Source: a virus
IMG/VR virus record: IMGVR_UViG_3300022074_000260
Span: 1-29,658 of that record
Direction: 5' to 3' (one strand)
DNA length: 29,658 nt
Below the pieces are notes generated by a model that ran no database searches, had not been told where the DNA came from, and was given only the letters and a program-made list of their open reading frames with translations. Both the position numbers and the translations under genes were made by a program. Positions 1-6,829 of this stretch are shown here, piece after piece; within the stretch, counting starts at the first letter, position 1; each line of letters starts with the position of its first letter.

Positions 1-203
1 TTCCACAGTGGACAGATGACTGGGCAGTATGTGCAGTAGATATTCCAGACGCAGCATGTCATTGGTATGTTGCAGAAGCAGATAATACATTTGGTGAAGG
101 ATTTGATTGGGAGAATGCTCCTTGGTTTGATGCTAATGGATTGAATGACATAGCACCAATACAGAAGAAGACCGTAGCACAGAAATTACAAGACCTAGGT
201 TGA
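1..203 (+). CDS. 3' end of an unidentified protein (5' truncated by window edge)
   Basis: An open frame enters the window in phase from base 3 and runs 66 codons to a TGA at 201-203. The visible C-terminus is rich in Trp, Asp and Ala and ends KKTVAQKLQDLG. I do not recognise it. In T4-like phages the genes before the terminase are neck, tail-terminator or small-terminase genes (gp13 to gp16), so this could be the end of one of them, but nothing in the visible residues decides it. The next gene starts 23 bases downstream on the same strand. Confidence 0.6.
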   Translation, partial: PQWTDDWAVCAVDIPDAACHWYVAEADNTFGEGFDWENAPWFDANGLNDIAPIQKKTVAQKLQDLG

Positions 204-226: not shown

Positions 227-376
227 ATGATCCTCATACTTATCATAAGTGTGACGATTCTCATCGCCTATATAATGAAGTATGCTTATGAGGAAATGAA
301 CGATGGGAGCACTGACACCCCCAAGCAGGAAGAGTTGTTACAACTTCCGAGTGACGGAGATAACAAAAGTAGTTGA
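227..376 (+). CDS. Small single-pass membrane protein, 49 aa
   Basis: An ATG frame of 49 codons begins with a nearly pure hydrophobic segment (residues 1-17, MILILIISVTILIAYIM), followed by a charged tail rich in Glu, Asp and Lys. This looks like an N-terminal membrane anchor with a short hydrophilic C-terminus. It lies 23 bases after the preceding stop and overlaps the start of the downstream nuclease gene by 74 bases. That long overlap is the main argument against it, but the composition is clearly membrane-like and very small membrane genes recur in this genome. Function unknown. Confidence 0.5.
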   Translation: MILILIISVTILIAYIMKYAYEEMNDGSTDTPKQEELLQLPSDGDNKSS

Positions 377-764
377 TGGAGATACCATTGACGTAGTAAT
401 AGACCTAGGGTTCGATATCTATAAGCACGAGAGAGTAAGAATTGCAGGAATTGATACTCCCGAGAAGAGGACAAGAGACTTAGAAGAGAAAGCATTGGGT
501 ATAGATGCAACAAACTGGATGAAAGGAACGTTAGAGGATACTATAAATGGAGAACACGAACTTACTATACGTACTGAACTCAAAGGTGGCGTGGGTAAGT
601 ATGGTAGGCTTCTTGGTTGGTTATACGTTGGCGATGATCCTATATCACTCAACGAACAGATGATTGACGAAGGGTACGCATTAGAGTATGATGGTGGTAC
701 GAAGAATAAAGATTGGGAAATCCTAAAAGAGATTCGTCGTAAACATGGCACCCTAATAGAATGA
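303..764 (+). CDS. Staphylococcal-nuclease-like (SNase/thermonuclease) protein
   Basis: This 153-aa protein has the SNase (OB-fold) layout: VVDGDTIDV at residues 23-31, VRIAGIDTPE at 45-54 and KYGRLLG at 99-105. The residues equivalent to the SNase catalytic set (Arg35, Glu43, Arg87) are Arg46, Glu54 and Arg102. The calcium-binding Asp positions match Asp25 or Asp27 and Asp51. The family cleaves DNA and RNA phosphodiesters in a Ca2+-dependent way. The ATG at 303 has a GAGG sequence about 8 bases upstream, though it overlaps the upstream 49-aa frame. No signal peptide is visible, so it probably acts in the infected cell, perhaps on host nucleic acid. Such nucleases are common in cyanomyoviruses. 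Confidence 0.85.
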   Translation: MGALTPPSRKSCYNFRVTEITKVVDGDTIDVVIDLGFDIYKHERVRIAGIDTPEKRTRDLEEKALGIDATNWMKGTLEDTINGEHELTIRTELKGGVGKYGRLLGWLYVGDDPISLNEQMIDEGYALEYDGGTKNKDWEILKEIRRKHGTLIE

Positions 765-772
765 TACCTACT

Positions 773-988
773 ATGAGAAAAACTATTATTAACGCACTCA
801 AAGCACACGCAATGGGTGACATCAAAAAACATTTAGCAAACATTGAAATCTATTTGGAGAATCCTGCTGGCATTGGAGAACACTCTGATGTTATGGAAGC
901 AATCCAAGTAGAACTAGATCAGGTGGCAAAATACCATGACCAACTCGAAGTCCTCTCAAAGTACGTTGACAGGGAATCTGGTTCATGA
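773..988 (+). CDS. Conserved small cyanophage protein, unknown function
   Basis: This 71-aa soluble protein is predicted to be mostly helical, with a central IYLENPAGIGEHSD block. I recognise this pattern as a small conserved protein of T4-like marine phages, without a known function. Two in-frame ATGs exist, at 761 and 773. I chose 773 because MRKTIINALKAHA is the usual beginning of the family, and the 761 start would overlap the nuclease gene stop. The 3' end overlaps the pcyA start by 53 bases. Confidence 0.7.
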   Translation: MRKTIINALKAHAMGDIKKHLANIEIYLENPAGIGEHSDVMEAIQVELDQVAKYHDQLEVLSKYVDRESGS

Positions 989-1673
989 AGTTTCTTCATT
1001 AATTAGACATAAAATATTAACTCTCCCCGACCTTCAACCATTTGATAATCCACATCCTATTGTAGAAAATGACGATGTGTTTATCATTAACGAGATGAAT
1101 AGTTGTAGGGGTCTTAGGAAGGTACATTTAGAAACAGGATATACAAAGAACATTGAAGTCATGCACTGTGTGTTCTTTCCTGATCCAAACTACCCCCTAC
1201 CTATTTTTGGTGCCGATATAGTAGCAACACCGAAAGTAATTACTGCTGCCATAGCAGATATATCTCCTGTATATAATGCAAGTAGTATATACTATGGTTT
1301 AGATTTGATCGCTAGTCAATATAAATTTAAAGAACCAAGAGCATTACCAGAATGGGCAGATATATTCTCACCCTTCTGTCAGTTTGTGCGTATAAGAGAT
1401 AATAAAGAGAAAGGAATGTTTGTTCAGTTAGTAGAAAGATACTTAGATATCTACATTGAACATGTGTATGGTGCTGAAAGAGATCCTCAGTGGATAAATA
1501 CTATGAAGCGTATGGATGATCAGATCTGGTATTGTAAGCAACAAAGGCAAAACAAAAAGACTAAGGCAGTCCTTGGTCAGTGGTTTGATCCTGAGTGGGC
1601 ACAAGATTATATCGACAATACTTTATTTGATACACCCAACAGTAACTGGCGATGGTGGATGAACAATGAGTGA
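936..1673 (+). CDS. pcyA: Phycocyanobilin:ferredoxin oxidoreductase
   Basis: This 245-aa protein is a ferredoxin-dependent bilin reductase of the PcyA type, which reduces biliverdin IXalpha by four electrons to phycocyanobilin, the phycobilisome chromophore. From memory it aligns with Synechocystis PcyA over LRKVHLE (60-66), VMHCVFFPDP (75-84), FGADIVA (91-97) and AAIADISP (104-111). It also matches the C-terminal YC(K/Q)QQ and LFD blocks. Residues matching catalytic Glu76, His88 and Asp105 are Glu66, His77 and Asp94, with the His-Asp spacing of 17 preserved. It fits PcyA better than phage PebS. The ATG at 936 overlaps the previous gene by 53 bases; a later start would cut into the N-terminal part that families of this size keep. 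Its last 8 bases overlap TerL. It is presumably an auxiliary metabolic gene acquired from a cyanobacterium. Confidence 0.93.
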   Translation: MTNSKSSQSTLTGNLVHEVSSLIRHKILTLPDLQPFDNPHPIVENDDVFIINEMNSCRGLRKVHLETGYTKNIEVMHCVFFPDPNYPLPIFGADIVATPKVITAAIADISPVYNASSIYYGLDLIASQYKFKEPRALPEWADIFSPFCQFVRIRDNKEKGMFVQLVERYLDIYIEHVYGAERDPQWINTMKRMDDQIWYCKQQRQNKKTKAVLGQWFDPEWAQDYIDNTLFDTPNSNWRWWMNNE

Positions 1674-4021: not shown

Positions 4022-6829
4022 ATGGCATCCACACAAATTTCACCAGGTGTCGTTGTCCTAGAAAGAGATCTAACTAATACCGTCAACGCAACTGTTGATA
4101 ACATTGCAGCGGTAGTTGGAACCTTTCAGAAAGGACCAGTAGATGAGGTTAGAACAATCTCGTCCGAGAGACAACTGGTTGAAGAGTTTGGTAAACCAAA
4201 CGACAGTAATTACGAGTACTGGTTTTCTGCTGCACAGTTTATGCTGTATGGCGGTTCATGTAAAGTAATTCGTGCAACAAGCACATCATTAAAAAATAGT
4301 ATTGACACTACTACTGTAACAGATACAACATTCTCTGCATCTGATACTACACTGACAGTCAGTGAAGCAACTGACTTCGACAACGGAGATCTTTTAAAGA
4401 TCGACGCTGAAATAGTTTCAGTCACAGGAATATCTGGTTTAGATATAACAGTAAGTCGTGGACAGTTAAACACATCTGCGGTATCTCACGCTGCATCTTC
4501 ACAGATCACATTGATCGAAGCAGCAGGAACTACTACAACAATCAACGAAGGCGGTACATTTAGTAATAGTGATACAACACTAACAGTTACTAACGCTTCT
4601 ACACTTGGAGTTCAGATAAACTCTTACATCAGAATTACTGATGAGATCATGCAAGTTACTGGTATTTCTACCAACGACTTGACTGTAACAAGAGCACAAC
4701 TAGGAACTGCTGCATCATCACATACTGATGGTGTTACTGTAACTCTATTGACTGTTACTACTAACAAGACAACAATCAATGAGACAACAACATCTGGTGT
4801 TACTCCTCCCTTAATCAAGAACTTTGATGAGTATGAGGCAACAACTGAAACTGCTTCTAACAACTGGAAGTGGGCAGGAAGAACTCCTGGATCATACGGA
4901 AATAGCATTCGTGTCGTAATGACAGACGCTGGTCCTGATCAGATTCTATATCTCGCTGCTCCAACAACAGGTAACCCTGAGCATAAGTTAGAGACAGGCA
5001 AGAAGGTTAACATTTCAGCAACTAGTTCTTACTCACAGATTTATTCATACGTCTTAGAGATTGAATTTGATAACGATGCTTCACTAGTCGGAACATTTGA
5101 TGGTGGTAACTTCTTTACTGCTGTATCTGGTAACGTAACTGGTAGTGTGGTTGCTTACAATTCCTCAACAAGAAAGATAGAAGTCACAGTTGACACAACA
5201 TCATCTGATTACCTAGAAGTTGGTGACACAGTTACTGAACTACTAAACAGTGGTGGATCTCCTGGATCTGCATCTGGTGATAGCGCAAAGATTAAGTCTA
5301 TTAACAGAAGACTTTCTATCGTTATGAATAAAGATGCTGTTAACTTTGTAGCAAACCAAGTAATTAAAGAAGGATCTACATATGCTGCTGACGGTGTAAC
5401 AACTGCTGGTAGAGATGTAAATATCGTTTCTATCGCAGATGAGTATGCAAGTCGTGTATACGGTAATGAGCAAAAATGGTCATCTATTGCTAAGAGACCT
5501 GGAACTTCTGCATACGCAGCGGACAGAAATGGATTCCGCGACCTAATGCACATCCTTGTTCTTGATGGAGACGGTGGTATCACTGGTGTCCCAGGAGCAG
5601 TTCTTGAAAAATTCACCGACGTGTCTAAGGCATCTGATGCTAAGTCACCTCAGGGAACTAACATTTACTACAAAGATGTTATCAAGGCATCTTCACAGTA
5701 TATCTGGTGGGGTTCACACGAATCAACATTAGTATTAGATATTGATGGCACTGCAACAGGAGACGTCGGAACAACTGCAACAGGCAGACAGTTTGACCTC
5801 TTTAAGAGCACAACTGCTATATCAGATATAGATGATCCTGCTGGAACTGCATCTGGTGCAGTACCGCTTATGTTCACAAAGGGAACTTCTACTATCAAGT
5901 ACTCCTTAAAAGGTGGAGTTGATGGTTACTCAGCAGAAAGAGATAAGTTATTTGATTCATATGACTTACTAAGCGACCCTGAGACAGAAGAGATAGACTA
6001 CATTATAGGTGGTCCAGGCATGAGCAATGAGTCTGACTCTATTGCTAAGGCACAGAAATTGATTGACATTGCAAACATCCGTAAGGACTGCATAGCATTC
6101 ATTTCACCTCCTAAGTACTCTGTTATCGGTGTACCTAGCACAAACACTATTGTAGAAAATACAATATCATTCTTCGATGCATTATCATCAACATCATACG
6201 CTGTATTTGATAACAACTACAAGTACATGTATGACAAGTACAATGATAAGTATCGTTACCTTCCATGTAACGCAGACGTTGCTGGACTAACACTAAGTAC
6301 TGCACTTAACTCAGAACCATGGTTCTCTCCTGCTGGATTCAACAGAGGACAACTATTAAATGCTGTTAAGTTAGCATACTCACCATTAAAAGATCATAGA
6401 GATCGTTTATATGGTTCACGAATCAACCCTATCGTATCATTCCCTGGACAAGGTAATATACTTTACGGAGACAAGACTGCACTTGCACAAGCATCTGCTT
6501 TCGACAGAATCAACGTTCGTCGTTTATTCTTAGTAATCGAGAGAGCAATCTCACTGTCTGCTAAGGGACAACTCTTTGAAATCAATGACGAGTTTACTCG
6601 TAAGGGATTCAAAAACTTAGTTGATCCATACCTAAGAGGAGTTCAATCTGCTCGTGGTATTATTGACTACCTAGTTGTATGTGACTCCACAAACAACCCC
6701 GCAGAAGCACAGGACCGTGGTGAGTTCTTTGCTGAAATCTTTGTTAAACCAACAAGGTCGATTAACTTCATCACACTTACATTTACTGCAACCAGAACAG
6801 GGGCAACCTTTGCTGAGGTAACACAGTAA
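4022..6829 (+). CDS. 18: Tail sheath protein gp18
   Basis: This 935-aa contractile sheath subunit polymerises around the gp19 tube. The N-terminus (QISPGVVVLERDLTN) and the C-terminal region (VKPTRSINFITLTFTATR) are typical of myovirus sheath proteins. The C-terminal domain also has the FDRINVRRLFLVIERAIS block seen in the sheath core. It is much longer than T4 gp18 (659 aa). Part of the excess is a Ser/Thr-rich insert at about residues 95-260 with two tandem copies of a roughly 70-residue module, probably displayed on the outside of the sheath. A strong Shine-Dalgarno supports the start, and a late promoter motif lies upstream. Confidence 0.95.
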   Translation: MASTQISPGVVVLERDLTNTVNATVDNIAAVVGTFQKGPVDEVRTISSERQLVEEFGKPNDSNYEYWFSAAQFMLYGGSCKVIRATSTSLKNSIDTTTVTDTTFSASDTTLTVSEATDFDNGDLLKIDAEIVSVTGISGLDITVSRGQLNTSAVSHAASSQITLIEAAGTTTTINEGGTFSNSDTTLTVTNASTLGVQINSYIRITDEIMQVTGISTNDLTVTRAQLGTAASSHTDGVTVTLLTVTTNKTTINETTTSGVTPPLIKNFDEYEATTETASNNWKWAGRTPGSYGNSIRVVMTDAGPDQILYLAAPTTGNPEHKLETGKKVNISATSSYSQIYSYVLEIEFDNDASLVGTFDGGNFFTAVSGNVTGSVVAYNSSTRKIEVTVDTTSSDYLEVGDTVTELLNSGGSPGSASGDSAKIKSINRRLSIVMNKDAVNFVANQVIKEGSTYAADGVTTAGRDVNIVSIADEYASRVYGNEQKWSSIAKRPGTSAYAADRNGFRDLMHILVLDGDGGITGVPGAVLEKFTDVSKASDAKSPQGTNIYYKDVIKASSQYIWWGSHESTLVLDIDGTATGDVGTTATGRQFDLFKSTTAISDIDDPAGTASGAVPLMFTKGTSTIKYSLKGGVDGYSAERDKLFDSYDLLSDPETEEIDYIIGGPGMSNESDSIAKAQKLIDIANIRKDCIAFISPPKYSVIGVPSTNTIVENTISFFDALSSTSYAVFDNNYKYMYDKYNDKYRYLPCNADVAGLTLSTALNSEPWFSPAGFNRGQLLNAVKLAYSPLKDHRDRLYGSRINPIVSFPGQGNILYGDKTALAQASAFDRINVRRLFLVIERAISLSAKGQLFEINDEFTRKGFKNLVDPYLRGVQSARGIIDYLVVCDSTNNPAEAQDRGEFFAEIFVKPTRSINFITLTFTATRTGATFAEVTQ
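4307..4753 (+). repeat. Tandem protein-module repeat inside tail sheath
   Basis: Codons 96-166 and 170-244 of gp18 encode two diverged copies of one module. Both contain SDTTLTV, then a Gly, a D/E-E-I pair, VTGIS, DLTVTR or DITVSR, QL, and A-x-SH. The DNA copies have diverged well beyond a recent duplication. A short third start (TTINETTTSG, codons 250-259) follows. The sequence style is that of beta-rich modules decorating marine phage structural proteins. Confidence 0.8.

Follow-up and report, generated by a model that had tools for sequence, protein, structure and literature searches.

Gene arrangement around terL

The window, by which we mean the whole 29,658-nt stretch of viral DNA that was analysed (IMG/VR record IMGVR_UViG_3300022074_000260), starts within a cyanomyovirus hyperplastic region and carries the features collected in Table 1. 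The reading frame of pcyA is intact, with one clear start and the sequence AGGTGG upstream of the ATG. According to the initial annotation this gene overlaps both neighbours and lies directly ahead of terL, and the ORF coordinates agree. The stop of orf75 is found at the same place in close relatives, in which the overlap with terL comprises 11 bases instead of the 8 in the window.

Table 1 Features of the window discussed in the text
Feature	Position	Strand	Remarks
Conserved hyperplastic-region ORF, C-terminal part	3..203	+	PTOX between this ORF and the SNase gene in relatives
SNase-type endonuclease, PF00565, phrog_452	303..764	+	Common terL neighbour in cyanomyoviruses
orf75, small conserved phage ORF, phrog_1811	761..988	+	Overlaps pcyA by 53 bases
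pcyA, phycocyanobilin:ferredoxin oxidoreductase, complete, 245 aa	936..1673	+	Profile matches, residues, trees
pcyA codons TGG ATA AAT ACT ATG, with late-promoter core ATAAATA at 1494-1500	1491..1505	+	Motif match
gp17/terL, large terminase, 548 aa	1666..3312	+	Start overlaps pcyA stop by 8 bases
gp18 tail sheath, right border of g15-g18 region	4022..6829	+	CTAAATA, late-promoter-like, ~49 nt upstream

PTOX was considered for the leftmost ORF of the window, which proved wrong: a different conserved ORF lies there. In most relatives of the same type PTOX is located between the 121-aa ORF and the SNase gene, where positions 204-302 of the window stand against 12957-13686 of L303; the window lacks it, as do L012 and L039, the two nearest relatives. 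An unlisted short ORF of ~49 aa with a hydrophobic start (MILILIISVTILIAYIMKYAYEEMNDG...) was noted at 227-376 on the + strand, overlapping the SNase start. Relatives that diverge further upstream retain this DNA well, and the ORF possibly encodes a small membrane protein.

The window protein is a conserved phage PcyA

When compared with family models, the window protein scored 230 bits against the NCBIfam PcyA equivalog NF002760 (cut-off 206) and matched Pfam PF05996 with E=1e-48; the top rival bilin-reductase model gave 44 bits at a cut-off of 327. The initial annotation had described a complete pcyA with catalytic Glu66, His77 and Asp94. This was borne out, as these residues, together with His64, align with Glu76, His88, Asp105 and His74 of Synechocystis PcyA, in the residue numbering of that protein. 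Across 17 phage PcyA sequences, His64, Glu66 and Asp94 are invariant and His77 is nearly so. The gene is under purifying selection, with a median dN/dS of 0.13 in 74 pairs of close relatives.

Two quick trees of 60-62 bilin reductases were calculated, the second without the single PcyX row, which formed a very long branch whose placement is not safe. PcyA split from PebA/PebB/PebS with support of 99-100, and the window protein formed a five-row clade of its own (support 100) nested in a 17-row phage clade (97-98). The initial annotation had proposed such a tree to check the assignment, and the protein is placed inside PcyA, within phage PcyA and apart from PebS, PebA and PebB. PEB-forming PcyX/PebS-like enzymes are known from phages, and the window protein might be one of these rather than a PCB-forming PcyA. 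This identity was rejected on family models and trees and is very improbable: the protein passes the PcyA equivalog cut-off but fails all PEB models (a set without a curated PcyX model), retains the Glu76 equivalent, lies far from PebS in the trees and matches the PcyX crystal protein far more weakly than PcyA.

No heme oxygenase gene was found in the 29.7-kb record, which is a genome fragment. This agrees with the initial annotation, by which the source of biliverdin would be the host or another part of the genome. Likewise, ho1 is missing from 9 of 10 complete pcyA-carrying cyanophage genomes, the exception being P-RSM6, which also has pebS; three pcyA phages tabulated in PMC3037559 follow the same ho1 pattern. 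As ho1 is rare among complete genomes of this kind, its absence from the window is unremarkable. The likely substrate of the window PcyA would be host biliverdin.

pcyA lies in the g15-g18 hyperplastic region

A hyperplastic region between g15 and g18 of cyanomyoviruses was reportedly described by Millard in 2009. In the review PMC2984593, this stretch is presented as hyper-variable and as containing host-type genes. The initial annotation had considered the location of pcyA unusual, namely in the packaging module and not in a variable region; the site turned out to be the g15-g18 region itself. In the 79.9-kb relative G007 the gene order is gp13 (Ad2), gp14, gp15 (sheath stabiliser), gp16 (PF11053), DUF7243, a 784-aa ORF, DUF6321, a 121-aa ORF, PTOX, SNase, orf75, pcyA, terL and then gp18, an order in which gp16 and gp17 are already widely separated. 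The locus thus lies between gp15 and gp18 and has variable content, with gp18 present in the window, gp13-gp16 on the opposite side in G007 and PTOX varying between relatives. Like the cyanomyovirus region, the window carries a host-type gene (pcyA, with PTOX in relatives), whereas the description of the region in the accessible part of PMC2984593 names no pcyA adjoining terL. The structural module of P-TIM40 ranks among the closest in GenBank; in this phage PTOX and psbN are located around terL, and pcyA sits between dam and gp62, beside the clamp loader. The window pcyA is a conserved cyanophage PcyA in an already known hyperplastic region, and in this respect ordinary.

Proximity of pcyA and terL recurs in several lineages

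The pcyA gene is located immediately 5' of terL in two lineages besides that of the window and about one gene away in three more. The order SNase-orf75-pcyA-terL of the window was found in lineage A, where 18 environmental contigs show the junction, and also in lineage B (15 contigs), with TerL 73-86% and PcyA 56-57% identical. Lineage E has SNase-orf75-...-pcyA-terL at 18 loci, lineage C (P-RSM4, P-RSM1, metaG-MbCM1) SNase-pcyA-orf75-terL, and lineage D (P-RSM6 and relatives) pebS-pcyA-SNase-terL; in lineage F, pcyA lies on the opposite strand ahead of SNase-terL. Elsewhere, pcyA occurs beside gp5 (P-SSM7), cobS (P-SSM4), pstS (S-SSM6b, S-SSM4) or nrd/talC (ACG-2014j). On the tree, the state 'next to terL' requires five changes, at least 3-4 of which are forced by well-supported branches. 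Thus, pcyA has moved to or away from the surroundings of terL on several occasions. Such recurrence comes close to what the initial annotation itself had named as the mark of an ordinary position.

The PcyA proteins of cyanomyoviruses (T4-GC 413; P-SSM7, S-SSM4, P-SSM4, P-RSM4) share family, catalytic residues and host-range setting with the window protein at 47-57% identity. Unlike in the window, pcyA is not beside terL in P-SSM7, P-SSM4 and S-SSM4, and in P-RSM4 a small ORF separates the two genes.

In L050 and L083 the pcyA strand is opposite to that of SNase-terL, the region being otherwise co-directional. Genes for PcyA of cyanophage or cyanobacterial type were also seen on contigs labelled Nonlabens (L136), Bifidobacterium breve (L140) and Gammaproteobacteria (L146), with identities of 94% to P-TIM40, ~40% to the window and 62% to ACG-2014j, respectively; contamination or mislabelling is probable. 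The photosynthesis section of PMC2984593 assigns pcyA to P-SSM2; in the P-SSM2 record, tblastn detected pebS and no pcyA.

A late-promoter core in the 3' end of pcyA

A late-promoter core, GGATAAATACTAT, is present near the pcyA end, 172 nt before the terL ATG, and GGATAAATACTATG spans pcyA codons W186-M190 (peptide W-I-N-T-M). The published cyanomyovirus late promoter is given as NATAAATA in PMC2984593. With T4-type gp55/gp33/gp45 late promoters (TATAAATA; NATAAATA in S-PM2) the window shares, by sequence, a sense ATAAATA core that precedes a late gene; it differs in that this core lies inside the coding sequence of a metabolic gene, at its 3' end, and at that distance from terL. Over the complete window, 15 copies of the related core TAAATA lie on the + strand and 3 on the - strand, several of them directly before structural genes, among them gp18, gp20, gp22 and gp23. 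Sense ATAAATA occurs four times, which is within chance.

When 205 pcyA loci were surveyed, sense ATAAATA was found in the pcyA 3' end of all sequences of lineages A (13/13), B (12/12) and E (18/18), in E at another position. In the P-SSM7-like group it was present in 19 loci (23 with the next gene called gp5) at a third position, which precedes gp5 by 30 nt. Other phage clusters among the 205 loci had no copy in the pcyA 3' end, and the one remaining sense copy belonged to a cyanobacterial pcyA, close to its start. Hence the motif occupies the pcyA 3' end only in four lineages in which a late gene (terL or gp5) comes next, at three unrelated positions, and antisense ATAAATA gave no matches at the pcyA 3' end. 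Lineages A and B share one motif position and because of this are possibly not independent. The codons ATA AAT are kept in every lineage A and B sequence, where ~20% of the codons for shared residues are invariant between the two lineages.

Upstream of terL the core was present in 37 of 37 cases with pcyA as the preceding gene, in 1 of 17 with SNase and in 11 of 58 others. Since it is missing near terL in most pcyA-less relatives, terL does not generally require the core. In a check of the motif, ATAAATA was also seen to precede gp18 in 34/65 and gp5 in 21/21 distinct upstream sequences, with no antisense matches. Within 250 nt upstream of window-type pcyA no late-promoter core was detected, and upstream of SNase there were rare exceptions; a late promoter directly ahead of either gene is thus nearly absent. 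A scan for generic sigma-70 promoters returned a count at chance level, and a scan of the + strand found nothing resembling a terminator between pcyA and terL.

In P-SSM7-like loci (L227, L229, L235, L241 and others), all 16 distinct sequences upstream of CP12 have ATAAATA at -10 to -12 relative to the start of the gene, and a late promoter in this very close position may drive CP12.

Discussion

Altogether, the window very probably encodes a working PcyA that would reduce host biliverdin during infection, its gene being one of the host-type genes that T4-like cyanophages maintain in the g15-g18 hyperplastic region. In an infected marine picocyanobacterium, biliverdin IXa made by the host would be converted to phycocyanobilin by the phage enzyme with electrons from ferredoxin, and the gene lies in the conserved string SNase-orf75-pcyA-terL. 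A probable gp55-type late promoter in the 3' end of pcyA would start late terL transcription independently of the pcyA transcript.

The initial annotation had placed pcyA in one unit with terL and suggested that it may be expressed late. The tight packing stands, and the overlaps of 53 and 8 bases and the lack of a terminator-like site on the + strand fit an auxiliary gene abnormally wedged into the packaging module; joint late expression is doubtful. Against this reading, which we regard as improbable, the location is that of the published hyperplastic region (PMC2984593), a relative already has gp16 and gp17 widely separated, pcyA recurs near terL, and the late-promoter core lies inside pcyA, with none within 250 nt upstream of window-type pcyA and rarely one upstream of SNase. 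With the core in this place, late terL transcripts can arise without pcyA, and if the embedded promoter works, the overlaps give no ground for concluding that pcyA is expressed late together with terL. We found no literature on the expression timing of pcyA itself.

The core itself could have arisen by chance from the peptide W-I-N-T-M and codons rich in AT, with terL transcribed by read-through from upstream. The motif is short, its copy number is at chance level in one genome and many codons are conserved anyway, which leaves this reading a serious possibility, if the less probable one. However, sister pcyA genes that encode the same peptide and are not beside terL use ATC, ATT or Val codons and never ATA; the motif is confined to loci in which the next gene is a late one, where it takes three different positions; and antisense matches at the pcyA 3' end are absent. 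Compared by lineage, the motif is strongly associated with late genes, but it is short and AT-rich. We lean towards a working gp55-type late promoter in the 3' end of the window pcyA, from which terL would be transcribed late, and this likely late start signal within pcyA is the one new detail of the locus. About evenly balanced is the wider proposal, based on at least three separate placements, that phage pcyA genes evolved a gp55-dependent late promoter in their 3' coding end serving terL or gp5, so that a metabolic gene would double as promoter carrier for the DNA-packaging motor.

For cyanophages, the locus corrects a tempting misreading: genes beside terL belong to a known variable region and not to a protected packaging block. 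If the embedded promoter is real, an acquired metabolic gene would be tied to an essential late gene, its own time of expression still being different. Such a promoter would make loss of pcyA costly and thereby help to fix the gene at this site.
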